From positions 744,001-808,000 of the forward strand of contig NZ_FNKQ01000002.1 in the NCBI RefSeq assembly GCF_900100875.1: DNA of 64,000 nt, in the 5' to 3' direction. A program made the position numbers and the translations under genes. The notes beneath the pieces are model-generated. The model saw nothing but the letters and a program-made list of their open reading frames with translations. It made no database searches and had not been told where the DNA came from. Source of the DNA: Halopelagius longus. Lineage in GTDB: Archaea > Halobacteriota > Halobacteria > Halobacteriales > Haloferacaceae. Below are positions 15,426 to 20,497 of this stretch, one piece after another; within the stretch, counting starts at the first letter, position 1; every line of letters begins with the position of its first letter.

Positions 15426-15770
15426 ATGAGCAATCACATTCCCCCCCTACCACCCGACTCGCTGGCGGAGACGAGTCACGTCTCGCGTGACGACCTCTTC
15501 GAGGCTCTCGCCAACAGCAGACGCCGTACCGTGCTGTCAAAGATTGCCGACTCAGGGACGCCCGTCGAACTCCGAACGCTCGCGCGCGCCGTCGCCCGCG
15601 AGGAGGCGGAGCCGGACGACGAGGTTTCCGAGGAGACGTTCGAGAGCGTCTCGCTCACGCTCTATCACACGCACCTGCCGAAACTCGCGCACCTCGGCCT
15701 CATCGAGTTCGACGCCCGGCGGCGGGTCGTCGAGTCCGCGATAGACGGCATCGAGTCGCTGCCCGTGTAG
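15426..15770 (+). CDS. DUF7344-type winged-helix protein
   Basis: A 114-residue small regulator. Residues 20-105 form the haloarchaeal winged-helix domain often named DUF7344: D-L-F-E-A-L-A-N-S-R-R-R-T-V-L near residue 22, then an acidic loop (E-E-A-E-P-D-D-E-V), L-T-L-Y-H-T-H-L-P-K-L near 78, and the wing I-E-F-D. It is divergent from the Bat-like gene and lies just before the acidic operon, so it may control that operon or the Bat gene, which is only inference. The ATG at 15426 is the only reasonable start. Confidence 0.8.
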   Translation: MSNHIPPLPPDSLAETSHVSRDDLFEALANSRRRTVLSKIADSGTPVELRTLARAVAREEAEPDDEVSEETFESVSLTLYHTHLPKLAHLGLIEFDARRRVVESAIDGIESLPV

Positions 15771-15920: not shown

Positions 15921-16835
15921 ATGATTTCTGACTCGTCGAACGCCGACCGGCGACGCCGAACCGGGAACGTCAACCGTTGTCTGCTGACCGACGGCGGCCA
16001 AGAACAAGCGGAAACCGACGACGCGGAGGGCGAAGAGAACCAAGAACAGGGGTCGGAGGCGGACGAGCAGAGCGACCAAGAGCAGACCGCCGACGAGGGA
16101 GAGGGGCAAGGCGAGGAAGAAGAAGAGGCGAGCGAAGGCGAAGAAGAGGCGGGCGAAGACGAAGAGCAAGGCGAAGGAGCAGACGAGGAAGGAGGAGAGG
16201 CTAGCGAAGGCGAAGAAGGCGAGGAGGACGAGTTCAAGGAAGCGACGGCCAAGAGCAAAGAGGAGGAGGCCGACGAGAAGCAGGAGAGCCTCGAAGGCGA
16301 AGACGAGACCAGCGTCCTGTTTCTGGACCTCGAAGGACTGCACCTGGACCTCCTCGGACTGGAGGTCGACCTCAACGAAGTCGTCCTCGACGTCTCCGCC
16401 GAGAAGGGCGACGGCAACTTGGTCGGGAACCTCCTGTCGGCCGTCGCCGGCCTCCTCGACAAGCCCGGCGAGTTGATGGGCGGTCTCTCCGATATGCTCC
16501 CGTCGCTGAAGGACATGCTCCCCGAAGCGCCGGAGATGGGCGAGAAGATTCGCAGCATGGCGAAGAACGTGGCCGACGAACTCCCCCTGCAGGACGTGCT
16601 GACGCAGGTCATCGTCGGCCTCGTCGACCAACTGTTCGGCACCGACGTCGGCGAGGAAGAACAGCAGGAAGCGTCTGAAGACCAAGCGGAGGAAGGCGCA
16701 GACGAACAGGAACAAGCCGAGCAGGAGGGTGAGGAGGCGCAGGAAGGCGAGGAGTCGGAGGCCGAAGAGGGGGAGTCCGAAGAGGGCGAGGACTACTCCG
16801 AGGCCGGACAGGAGGACCAAGGGGCCGAAGCATGA
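15921..16835 (+). CDS. Very acidic protein with 'DLLGL...NLLGNLL' core (operon gene 1)
   Basis: About 304 residues, first of three coupled genes. Residues 30-120 are almost only Glu, Gln, Asp, Gly and Ala. Residues about 134-190 hold a hydrophobic core with L-D-L-L-G-L-E-V-D-L-N-E-V-V-L-D-V and N-L-V-G-N-L-L-S-A-V-A-G-L-L-D. This pattern is known to me from many uncharacterised actinobacterial and some other bacterial proteins, but the function is unknown. Residues 190-240 form an amphipathic segment (D-M-L-P-S-L-K-D-M-L-P), and the tail is acidic again. There is no signal peptide or catalytic motif. The start is unsure: ATG at 15897 is in frame too, and the first 20 residues are oddly basic. 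Confidence 0.75.
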   Translation: MISDSSNADRRRRTGNVNRCLLTDGGQEQAETDDAEGEENQEQGSEADEQSDQEQTADEGEGQGEEEEEASEGEEEAGEDEEQGEGADEEGGEASEGEEGEEDEFKEATAKSKEEEADEKQESLEGEDETSVLFLDLEGLHLDLLGLEVDLNEVVLDVSAEKGDGNLVGNLLSAVAGLLDKPGELMGGLSDMLPSLKDMLPEAPEMGEKIRSMAKNVADELPLQDVLTQVIVGLVDQLFGTDVGEEEQQEASEDQAEEGADEQEQAEQEGEEAQEGEESEAEEGESEEGEDYSEAGQEDQGAEA

Positions 16836-17122
16836 GCGGGTCGATACTCGGCCGCATCGACGTGATGGAACTCCTCAGCGACGTCGACTACGAGGAGGCC
16901 CTCGAAGGAACTCAGTGGGAGGGCGTCACGGAGGAAGACGGCCTCGGCGAACGCCTCGGCGCGCGCGCCGGCGAGTGGTTGGGAGGTGCCCTCGGCGCTC
17001 TCTTCGGAGAAGTCGCGGGCGATATGCTCGTCGGCGAGATGCTCGATAAGGTCGGCGGCGACGCGCAGTTGTCGGGGAGCGGTGACGGCGGAAGCGACTC
17101 GACGCAGGAGGCGAATGCATGA
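16832..17122 (+). CDS. Small Gly-rich protein, operon gene 2
   Basis: A 96-residue protein whose ATG overlaps the previous stop (ATGA), so it is translationally coupled. Residues 39-55 fit G-x-x-[LF]-G-x-R-A-G-x-x-L-G-x-x-L-G, followed by L-F-G-E-V-A-G-D-M-L-V-G-E-M-L. Its small-residue spacing (G every 3-4 positions) suggests a glycine-zipper helix packing within or on a membrane or in an assembly. The same motif recurs in gene 3. The C-terminus is Ser/Gly/Asp-rich. No family recognised. Confidence 0.75.
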   Translation: MSGSILGRIDVMELLSDVDYEEALEGTQWEGVTEEDGLGERLGARAGEWLGGALGALFGEVAGDMLVGEMLDKVGGDAQLSGSGDGGSDSTQEANA

Positions 17123-18006
17123 GTAGCGACTCCGCCGACGATAACACGGGGCTGAAGAGCGTCATCGCCGACGAAATCGAATCGCAGATAGACAGCCAGA
17201 AGATGGGCAAGAAAGTCGGCAGGGAGTTCGGCTCTCGCGCGGGGCGCGTCCTCGGCGCGCGCCTCGGCGCGACGGTGGACGAAACCGTCCGCGAGGGCGT
17301 CGAGCAAGGGAAGCGACCGGCGGAGATCGCCGGCGAACTCAAGCGGACGCTCGCGGCGTCGATACACGACTCTCTCGGCGACCCGGAGTCGGTCAAGCGG
17401 ACATTCGCCGACCTGCAGGAGTCGATTCGCGACGCCGAGAGCGACGCCGCGGAGTCGGCGACGGACGCCGCGGACGAGACGAAAGAGAGCGCCGAAGCGG
17501 TCGTCGAGGAAGCGACGGACGCCGGTGAGGAGGCCAAGGAGAAAGCCGAAGACACCGGTGAGGAAGCCAAGGAGAAAGCCGAAGACGCCGGCGAGGAGGC
17601 CAAAGAGCAGGCCGAAGATGCGGGCGAACGAGTGCAGGAGGTCGTCTCGGAGGCGGCGAGCACCGTCGAGGATACGCTCGAACGCGCCGACGAGACGGAC
17701 GAGGAGACGGAGTCGGAGGTCGAATCCGAGGCCGAGGCGGCCGAGTCGGAGGCCGAAGAGACCGAAGTGGAGAGTCCGGACTCGGTGGACCCCGGCGAAG
17801 TCCGCCGCGAGACGTACCGCGAACTGCTCGAAAACATCTCCTACCGCGAACTGCAGTCGATGGCGAAGGAGGCCGACATCAAGGCGAACCAGAGTCGGGA
17901 GGACCTCGTCGATGCCCTCGTCGAACAGTTCGACTCGAAGAACGCCGGAGACGACGGCGACGACGGCGACGGCGACGATGGCGACGGCGACGATGGCGAC
18001 GACTGA
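17119..18006 (+). CDS. Acidic helical protein with 11-residue repeats and Rho_N/SAP-like tail, operon gene 3
   Basis: A 295-residue protein, coupled by ATGA to gene 2. Residues 34-50 repeat the motif of gene 2 (G-R-E-F-G-S-R-A-G-R-V-L-G-A-R-L-G), and the first 110 residues form a helix-rich domain. Residues 136-168 contain three tandem 11-residue units of the type G-E-E-A-K-E-K-A-E-D-x, similar to LEA-type helical repeats. Residues about 215-275 hold a helix-extended-helix segment (Y-R-E-L-Q-S-M-A-K-E-A-D-I-K-A-N then R-E-D-L-V-D-A-L-V-E-Q-F), reminiscent of Rho_N or SAP nucleic-acid-binding folds. It ends in a Gly/Asp tract. No function assigned. Confidence 0.75.
   Translation: MSSDSADDNTGLKSVIADEIESQIDSQKMGKKVGREFGSRAGRVLGARLGATVDETVREGVEQGKRPAEIAGELKRTLAASIHDSLGDPESVKRTFADLQESIRDAESDAAESATDAADETKESAEAVVEEATDAGEEAKEKAEDTGEEAKEKAEDAGEEAKEQAEDAGERVQEVVSEAASTVEDTLERADETDEETESEVESEAEAAESEAEETEVESPDSVDPGEVRRETYRELLENISYRELQSMAKEADIKANQSREDLVDALVEQFDSKNAGDDGDDGDGDDGDGDDGDD
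17524..17622 (+). repeat. Three tandem 33-bp units (11-residue helical repeats)
   Basis: Three adjacent in-frame 33-base units differ by a few third-position or single-residue changes and encode G-E-E-A-K-E-K-A-E-D-x-like repeats inside the acidic operon gene 3. Confidence 0.8.
17947..18003 (+). repeat. GAC/GGC low-complexity tract at the end of operon gene 3
   Basis: A run of GAC and GGC codons (G-D-D-G-D-D-G-D repeats) directly precedes the stop codon. It is a short slippery tract and could change the frame by expansion or slippage. Confidence 0.7.
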
Positions 18007-18361: not shown

Positions 18362-19552
18362 ATGTCAGTAATCGGAGTAAAACCCCCGGAGGACCGGGCT
18401 CGCATCGGCTGGTGGGCGTTCATTCTCGTACTCGCGGCGGCGGCGGCGTACATCGCCTACTCGTTCGTCGGAATGTTCGTGTTGGGCGTCTTCGGCTACT
18501 ACGCGACCCGTCCGATATATCAACGCCTCAAAGGGACCGTCGGATCGGACAGTATCTCGGCCGCACTGACGCTCCTCCTCGTACTGCTCCCGATTTTCGC
18601 GATCGTGTCCTTCGCCGGGTTTCAGCTGTTCCAACAGGTCCAGCAGTCGCTCGGCGGTACCACCGGACCGATCGCACTCGTCGAGCAGTACTTCGGCATC
18701 GGATCGTTGGGAAGCGAGCAGCGCCAGATGCTCGCGTCGGTCCTTCAGAACCCCCAGCAGGTCGTCACGAACCCCCAACAGACGTTTCGGAAGGTCCTTC
18801 AGGCGGGTCTGACGGTGATGTCGGCGATAGTCAGCACGCTGTTACTCTTGGCGCTGGCGGTGACGCTCTCGTACTTCCTCCTGAAGAACGACGAAGAACT
18901 CTCCGACGGCCTCCGGGAACTGTTCGGCGGTGGTGACACCACGGCCTACGCGTACGCCTCGGCCGTCGACGAGGACATCGAGTCCGTCTTCTTCGGGAAC
19001 TTCCTCTTCGTCGTCGTCATGGCAGTCGTCGCGGCGGCCGCCTACTGGGGGACGAACCTCCTCGCGCCGTCGGGACTCACCGTCCCCATGGTCTTCGTGC
19101 TCGCGTTTCTCACCGGCGTCGCCAGCCTGATTCCCATCGTCGTCGGCAAAGTCGTCTACCTCCCGGTGGTCGGCTACCTCGGCTTGCAGGCGATTCGCCT
19201 CGGCGGAAACCAACTCGTGTTCGTCGCCGGGGTGCTCGTCGCTTACTTCCTCCTCCTCGATATTCTCCCGCAGACGTTCCTTCAGCCGTACATCACGGGC
19301 CGCCAACTCGACATGGTGATGATGATGTTCGCCTACCTGCTCGGCCCGGTGCTGTTCGGCTGGTACGGCTTCTTCCTCCTTCCCATCGTGTTCATCCTGA
19401 TGCTCGAAGCGATTCGCATCGTCCTCCCCGAACTCCTCCACGGCGAGGCGCTCACGCCGACGGCGACGATAGGCGAGTCGGTCGGAAGCGACCCCGTGTC
19501 GGCGCGGGAGGAATCGCTCGACGACGACGCCTCCGAGGCGGGCGGCGAGTGA
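18362..19552 (+). CDS. AI-2E family permease
   Basis: A 396-residue membrane protein of the AI-2E/UPF0118 type. Hydrophobic helices are at about residues 17-40, 60-80, 140-165 and several between 195 and 350. Typical family signatures are seen: a Y-F-L-L-K-N-D-E-E-L segment near residue 177, and L-Q-P-Y-I-T-G-R-Q-L-D near 306. Relatives export small organic molecules or act in ion homeostasis, so the substrate is not known. The C-terminus is an acidic cytoplasmic tail (S-A-R-E-E-S-L-D-D-D). The start ATG 18362 follows closely a T/A-rich patch. Confidence 0.88.
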   Translation: MSVIGVKPPEDRARIGWWAFILVLAAAAAYIAYSFVGMFVLGVFGYYATRPIYQRLKGTVGSDSISAALTLLLVLLPIFAIVSFAGFQLFQQVQQSLGGTTGPIALVEQYFGIGSLGSEQRQMLASVLQNPQQVVTNPQQTFRKVLQAGLTVMSAIVSTLLLLALAVTLSYFLLKNDEELSDGLRELFGGGDTTAYAYASAVDEDIESVFFGNFLFVVVMAVVAAAAYWGTNLLAPSGLTVPMVFVLAFLTGVASLIPIVVGKVVYLPVVGYLGLQAIRLGGNQLVFVAGVLVAYFLLLDILPQTFLQPYITGRQLDMVMMMFAYLLGPVLFGWYGFFLLPIVFILMLEAIRIVLPELLHGEALTPTATIGESVGSDPVSAREESLDDDASEAGGE

Positions 19553-19663: not shown

Positions 19664-20497
19664 TCACTCCTCGGCGGTCCCGATTCGACCCCCGAGGACC
19701 GCGTTGACGACGGCGCCGCCCAACAGCAACAGTCCCGCGAGGTAGAGCCACAGAGCGAGGAGGATGAATCCGCCGAATACGCCGTACGTCCGGTACTCGC
19801 CCGTCAGTTCGAGGTAGAACTCGAAGATGCGCTGGAGGAACGCCCACCCGACGCCCGCGACCACCGCCCCGGGAATCGCCTCCGCGACGGAGACGTCCAC
19901 GTCGGGAAACAGGAGGTACAGGGGGAGGAACGCCACCGTCGCTCCGAGGACCACCAACAGCGAACGGACGTACTCCAACCCCGGAAAGCCGCGAACGTCT
20001 CCGAGTCCGACGGTCGCGCCGTAGAACGCCAGCACCGCGAACACCACCGCGAAGAACGCCACCGCCCCGTCGTGAACCCGGTCGACCAGCGAGTCCTCGC
20101 CCGTCGTCCCGTAGACGGCTGAGAACGCCGTATCGAGCCGCCTGAATACCTTGAGCGTGCTCCACAACAACACCCCGACGCTCAGTACCGACGCGCGGAA
20201 GCGGTTCTGGTCGTCGGTGATGACGTCCGCGACGAGGAGCGTCTCGCCCGGCGTCAGGTAGCGCTCGGTGCTCTCGACGACGAACACGGCCAGCGGTTCG
20301 TCCACGACGAACCCCGTCACGACGAACAGCAGAAAGAGGAGCGGGAGAAGCGACACGAGAGCGTGGTACGCGAAGCTTCCGGCGAGCAACGGGATGTTCT
20401 GCTCGCGAATCTCCCGGCGGACGGTTCCGACCACGACGACGACCCGGTTCGTGCGAACCCGTCGCCGGAGCGACTCGATTCCGCGCACGAGTCGCAT
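19664..20497 (-). CDS. YihY/BrkB family membrane protein
   Basis: A 277-residue protein with about six transmembrane helices. It opens with the family's R-E-x-N-I-P-L-L-A-G-S-F-A-Y-H-A-L-V-S-L-L-P pattern at about residues 31-52, an A-x-Y-G-T-T-G-x-x-S segment near 130, and the C-terminal E-Y-R-T-Y-G-V-F-G-G-F-I-L-L-A-L-W-L-Y region near 237-255. The protein is a membrane factor of uncertain function (older name: ribonuclease BN-like). The ATG at 20497 is the only good start. Confidence 0.88.
   Translation of the reverse strand: MRLVRGIESLRRRVRTNRVVVVVGTVRREIREQNIPLLAGSFAYHALVSLLPLLFLLFVVTGFVVDEPLAVFVVESTERYLTPGETLLVADVITDDQNRFRASVLSVGVLLWSTLKVFRRLDTAFSAVYGTTGEDSLVDRVHDGAVAFFAVVFAVLAFYGATVGLGDVRGFPGLEYVRSLLVVLGATVAFLPLYLLFPDVDVSVAEAIPGAVVAGVGWAFLQRIFEFYLELTGEYRTYGVFGGFILLALWLYLAGLLLLGGAVVNAVLGGRIGTAEE

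Follow-up and report, generated by a model that had tools for sequence, protein, structure and literature searches.

Three overlapping genes in Halopelagius longus encode extremely acidic proteins that the first-pass annotation considered unlike any recognised system, and the locus raises the question of which cellular structure, if any, these proteins serve. The window analysed here is a stretch of 64,000 nucleotides (contig NZ_FNKQ01000002.1, positions 744,001 to 808,000, forward strand).

Architecture of the acidic operon

All three genes lie on the forward strand of the window: gene 1 is an ORF of 304 aa (15921..16835), gene 2 encodes a glycine-zipper protein of 96 aa (16832..17122) and gene 3 is an ORF of 295 aa (17119..18006). 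They are joined by stop/start overlaps, GCATGA, at 16832 and 17119. The start of gene 1 at ATG 15921 is supported by its close relatives, which begin at a similar distance ahead of a conserved LxDGG motif. Both the single operon and the strong acidity claimed at first reading are borne out, the former by the ORFs, their overlaps and a gene order kept in relatives, the latter by composition: Asp and Glu make up 35, 22 and 32% of genes 1, 2 and 3, Lys and Arg 5, 4 and 11%, and the pI is ~4.05 for each. Genes 1 and 2 have no Pfam or NCBIfam match above cut-off, and the matches of gene 3 in these databases are weak and of low complexity, none of them significant.

Joint conservation of the three genes in other haloarchaea had been named as a check on the proposal that they are parts of one assembly, as they indeed appear to be. 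Gene 2 is found in 38 of the 146 sampled genomes of the order (E <= 0.01; the statistics on gene 2 use the 29 strongest genomes, E <= 1e-4), homologues of genes 1, 2 and 3 are consecutive around the gene 2 matches, usually with a fourth gene, and gene 1 homologues adjoin gene 2 at almost every locus. When named genomes were scanned separately, the four genes stood in a row at 51 of the 66 loci that could be read, in genera that include Haloprofundus, Halogranum, Halogeometricum, Haladaptatus, Natrinema, Natrialba, Natronococcus and Natronorubrum. Halalkalicoccus and a small number of others have genes 2 and 3 in fused or duplicated form; most gene 2 relatives have a long acidic tail, and in some families gene 2 is fused to the C-terminal domain of gene 3.

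The fourth gene that the operon normally holds is shown by profile comparison to be related to GvpI, a gas vesicle protein. Its C-terminus carries the motif HSTxxxxxxRxDM...STMP, and the gene 4 and GvpI HMMs match the same GvpI-position proteins, as expected of homologous C-termini. Gene 4 is absent from the window, though usual in the operon of relatives.

Other neighbours vary. The protein at 15426 belongs to the DUF7344 family (E 1e-22), and the suggestion that it regulates the operon is unsupported because DUF7344 is absent from every other locus examined. Downstream in the window are an AI-2E family transporter (18362-19552, +) and a BrkB family protein (19664-20497, -); on a Haladaptatus plasmid (L151), members of both families separate the operon from the gvp cluster. 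As a general partner of the operon BrkB was rejected, since only close relatives (L031, L032, L084) have it next to the operon.

The motif G-x-x-[LF]-G-x-R-A-G-x-x-L-G-x-x-L-G, which the first-pass annotation saw in both genes 2 and 3, recurs in the homologues of each and proves to be a strict glycine zipper. G43, G47, G51 and G55 are invariant among 26 gene 2 sequences, as are G34, G38, G42, G46 and G50 among 15 gene 3 sequences, so that both proteins have a repeated, conserved GxxxG at i, i+4, i+8 and i+12 within one helix. Because the two profiles align (hhalign probability 97.7, E 1.7e-12) and gene 3 of the window matches the gene 2 HMM (E 1e-6), genes 2 and 3 are paralogous. The structure predicted for gene 2 is a single helix, residues 38-75, at moderate confidence (mean pLDDT 70), and a fold search with this model gave no match. 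It had been suggested that the zipper could be a membrane- or assembly-packing helix; a membrane assembly is not favoured, given that the zipper of most homologues contains charged residues and that the gene 2 model is a single long helix.

Zipper genes also occur inside gvp clusters (L069_16, L072_11). The gvp cluster of the window genome (G000:C1) ends with an acidic glycine-zipper protein of 390 aa (L069 11660-12832, -) that has a short DLQGLAQDL C-terminus, and similar genes are present in the clusters of L067, L072, L181 and L186. Some clusters contain two different GvpO-like genes, one of them adjoining a glycine-zipper gene (L072 5587-7044, L181 9437-11235, L186 9167-10593).

Gene 1 consists, in order, of a short N-terminus with LxDGG, an extremely acidic segment, the LLGL/NLLGNLL core, a C-terminal helical stretch and an acidic tail. 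The D-L-L-G-L...N-L-L-G-N-L-L core singled out at first reading (16314..16484, +; 57 aa, delimited by alignment) is indeed conserved, with 73% mean column identity over 19 sequences, and its HMM finds the gene in its own genome at E 8e-27. AlphaFold2 predicts two long strands followed by a helix at low confidence (pLDDT 51.5), and the fold search with this model, too weak for the purpose, returned two meaningless matches. A divergent GvpA hairpin was considered for the core and rejected (hhalign against GvpA/J/M, probability 0.1, E 0.43). Within the phylum, 17 of 17 matches to the core fall in the same order; the LLGL core may also be distributed more widely in bacteria. A tblastn search of plasmids with the core found nothing, probably because the Leu-rich core is lost when low-complexity sequence is masked: it is present on Haladaptatus plasmids (L105, L107). 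Tat-signal proteins with an LLGL/NLLGNLL core are encoded at L161 6749-7363 (+) and L162 7790-8401 (+) and in L170, L171, L172 and L173. The core may therefore be a general-purpose domain, as it is also present in these exported proteins, which are unrelated to gvp.

In gene 3, an N-terminal glycine zipper is followed by acidic helical repeats, a C-terminal SAP-like segment and an acidic tail. The C-terminal domain (SYRELQSMAKEADIKANQSREDL...; 17791..17946, +; from the alignment and a Pfam scan) is SAP/Rho_N-like at a level under the Pfam cut-offs. Its segment SYRELQSLAKExxIKANxSREEL weakly resembles the SAP and Rho_N domains: 9 of the 17 members match SAP_new25 weakly (E 0.0099 for the best), and gene 3 of the window itself has weak matches to SAP (E 0.034) and Rho_N (E 0.07). 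A PDB profile search with this C-terminus gave chance-level matches and no PDB relative. These similarities hint that the C-terminus of gene 3 may be a DNA binder.

Distribution relative to gas vesicle genes

The operon tracks gas vesicle genes across the order. GvpA (PF00741) is present in 63 of the 146 genomes, and GvpO likewise in 63. The gene 1 core is found in 47 genomes at E<1e-10, and 44 of these are of the operon type, the matches in the remaining three (G077, G089, G096) being Tat-signal secreted proteins rather than operon genes. All 44 genomes with an operon-type gene 1 are GvpA-positive; among the 102 others GvpA is present in 19, and 83 have neither (Fisher 1.3e-22, 146 genomes). 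The 29 genomes with strong gene 2 matches are likewise all GvpA-positive. The operon is thus present only where gvpA is, with one exception, in a Natrialbaceae genome (G187) judged on GvpK.

Of the 44 genomes, 19, from four families (f5, f12, f13, f14), also have the operon directly linked to gvp genes, as a neighbour of the gvp cluster or within it. Operon genes border gvp clusters, or are contained in them, in L046, L051, L053, L054, L067, L083, L164 and L165, and gene 1 is inserted in the gvp operon between gvpH and gvpI in L067, L082 and L083. The order in L054 is gene 2/3, gene 1, a Zn-finger protein, GvpO and GvpA / GvpF-G-H-I-J-K-L-M. The operon on a Haladaptatus halobius plasmid is ~11 kb from gvpO, its genes annotated as 'hypothetical protein'. 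The small, coiled CxxC Zn-finger protein beside gene 1 and near gvpO (L054 9209-9571, -; also L053, L055, L057, L059 and L051) has the pattern PWIDEPxxxxEAV...CPSC...HVCLDC and is found in Halalkalicoccus-type clusters.

It could be argued that the operon has no functional link to gas vesicles and that the co-occurrence reflects shared ancestry only, given that genomes within a clade are not independent and that no linkage between operon and gvp is seen in the Natrialbaceae loci read or in the window genome, where the cluster (GvpO-N-A / F-G-H-I-J-K-L-M, with a long acidic GvpI-position protein) is on another contig. To allow for this dependence, the comparison was made again within Natrialbaceae. 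Of 125 genomes of this family, 111 of which have GvpK, 106 carry gene 1 together with GvpK, one has gene 1 only (G187), five have GvpK only (G146, G157, G163, G200, G222) and 13 have neither; three of the co-absences (G055, G191, G204) are within one genus that is otherwise rich in both. Such repeated co-absence within one family and one genus, together with the direct linkage in four families and the homology of the gene 4 partner to GvpI, makes coincidence by descent barely credible. The association of genes 1 to 3 with gas vesicles is strong and, in our judgement, very probably genuine, and in this respect the relatives connect them to a system that the first-pass annotation did not recognise. 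Our literature search, which covered few subscription journals, found no paper linking the three genes to gas vesicles.

Possible roles next to GvpC-less clusters

The genomes that carry the operon differ from those with classical gas vesicle clusters in their GvpC content. Classical GvpC is found in seven sampled genomes, six of them without gene 1; the search combined PF05465, which by itself missed one of the seven (G024), with a GvpC profile built from five sequences. No GvpC was detected in the window genome with PF05465 or the full-length profile. Among the 63 GvpA-positive genomes, 43 have gene 1 only, six GvpC only, one both (G024) and 13 neither, an exclusion (p 0.002) drawn from only seven genomes with GvpC and perhaps owed in part to common ancestry. 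In operon-type clusters GvpC is almost always absent and GvpI is long and acidic. This GvpI matches the extended form, with an N-terminal extension, described in Natrialba magadii and Haloterrigena turkmenica (PMC3403918). A Natrialbaceae genome without the operon (G157) has a classical cluster with GvpC and a GvpI that is short and basic (pI 10.4), and both types are represented in one genus (g32), by one genome each (G056, G064). In addition to the operon, the genome with both gene 1 and GvpC, also of Natrialbaceae, contains two gvp clusters (L079, L074): a classical one that includes GvpC, and a second that lacks it and has a long acidic GvpI.

Loss of GvpC in H. salinarum results in fragile, misshapen vesicles (PMC4390858), which suggests that GvpC-less clusters may need another reinforcing part. 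We propose that genes 1 to 3 form an unannotated accessory gas vesicle module that occurs mainly with GvpC-less, long-acidic-GvpI clusters and acts at the vesicle surface, a reading to which we assign a probability of about 0.5. The 13 GvpA-positive genomes with neither GvpC nor gene 1, two of which (G090, G108) have a zipper gene among their clustered gvp genes, imply that gene 1 is not universally required and that the module is no obligatory GvpC substitute. Also weighing against the proposal are the missing profile similarity of gene 1 to GvpA/J/M, the SAP-like end of gene 3, the presence of the gene 1 core in Tat-signal proteins and the lack of vesicles in cultures of several species with gvpC-less clusters (PMC4390858).

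Glycine-zipper helices favour tight helix packing, and at high salt an exposed surface is well served by acidic tails. The products of genes 1 to 3 would accordingly act at the vesicle surface, where the zipper helices of genes 2 and 3 might pack against each other into rods or sheets, the gene 1 core might anchor the complex to the GvpA shell or to the GvpA assembly complex, and the acidic tails, in a salt-rich cytoplasm, could act as a hydrated, repulsive brush. In this way a module distinct from GvpC would strengthen, shape or passivate the shell. For this surface coat, doing GvpC-like work, we put the chance at slightly below even.

The acidic low-complexity proteins might instead organise vesicles in space, clustering or placing them as GvpU and GvpT cluster vesicles in Bacillus megaterium (PMC11445434), with the SAP-like end of gene 3 tethering the clusters to DNA. 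The acidic tails and the SAP/Rho_N-like C-terminus would suit such an organiser, as would a weak similarity of gene 3 to YtxH (PF12732; E 0.004, 17.9 bits against a family cut-off of 37.5). GvpT resembles YtxH. We nevertheless consider this role rather unlikely, given that genes 1 to 3 have no significant similarity to the GvpU, GvpT or SAP families and that conservation is far stronger in the zipper than in the tails, a sign of specific packing.

A further question is what the GvpC-less clusters build. Natrialba magadii, Natrinema pellirubrum, Halopiger xanaduensis, Haladaptatus paucihalophilus and Natronobacterium gregoryi are recorded as vesicle-free in culture, with clusters that lack gvpC and gvpDE (PMC4390858); the operon is found in other species of four of these five genera. 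Several gvpC-less species being vesicle-free, yet their clusters kept across most Natrialbaceae, the cluster and the module might produce a GvpA-based compartment other than a buoyant gas vesicle. This appears improbable: the core gvp genes, including GvpF/G/H/J/K/L/M and GvpO, often GvpN, are retained, and the absence of vesicles in the laboratory may only mean untried conditions. The reported absence of GvpD and GvpE from such clusters (PMC4390858, PMC3403918) could also be taken, together with the SAP-like end of gene 3, to suggest a regulator or chaperone of gvp expression or assembly, gene 3 acting for instance on gvp promoters and genes 1 and 2 keeping GvpA soluble. Large acidic proteins of a structural type, tandem zipper paralogues and extra zipper genes in gvp clusters look structural, and we regard such a role as highly improbable.

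More tentatively than the module itself, we suggest that haloarchaea possess two gas vesicle systems, a classical one with GvpC and basic GvpI and a more widespread one in which the acidic zipper operon, the LLGL-core protein and the acidic GvpI relative form the outer coat; the listed gvp sets would then be incomplete. Gas vesicles, which provide buoyancy, are studied as a model organelle and used in biomedicine as ultrasound reporters. Haloarchaeal gvp gene sets have been treated as complete, and a 'hypothetical' operon that tracks GvpA across many genera, outside the gvp cluster in Natrialbaceae, would be a missing part for most gvp-bearing haloarchaea. How, or whether, gvpC-less species build stable gas vesicles becomes testable, and the operon may offer a new, non-GvpC handle on the surface properties of vesicles.

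Comparison with known systems

Parts of the module resemble proteins from several settings. Haloarchaeal Tat-signal proteins (L161_6, L162_12, L171_1) share the core of roughly 50 residues with gene 1 and differ in being probably exported, encoded by single genes and unlinked to gvp. The GxxxGxxxGxxxG helix of Gly-zipper_Omp (PF13488) and its relatives is common to genes 2 and 3, whereas the match lies below the curated cut-off (13.9 against 25 bits) and the operon has no lipoprotein or outer-membrane context.

Among gas vesicle proteins, GvpU and GvpT of Bacillus megaterium are comparable as non-shell accessory proteins that could organise vesicles; genes 1 to 3 have no sequence similarity to them above cut-offs. 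Gene 4 is like GvpI in the common C-terminal motif STxxxxxxRxDM...STxP and the HMM matches. Classical GvpI is short and basic (pI 10.8, PMC9501494; 10.4 in the Natrialbaceae genome above), whereas gene 4 and the long GvpI, for example Nmag_0338, are acidic.

GvpC (PF05465), the outer scaffold protein of haloarchaeal gas vesicles, is similarly acidic, gas-vesicle associated and partly helical, and the module occurs mostly where GvpC is absent. Genes 1 to 3 have no Pfam GvpC match, and neither GvpC-type helical repeats (32-40 residues) nor the conserved C-terminal domain of GvpC were found in them. In contrast to GvpC, the module consists of three or four separate glycine-zipper proteins and, in Natrialbaceae and the family of the window genome, is encoded away from gvpA.
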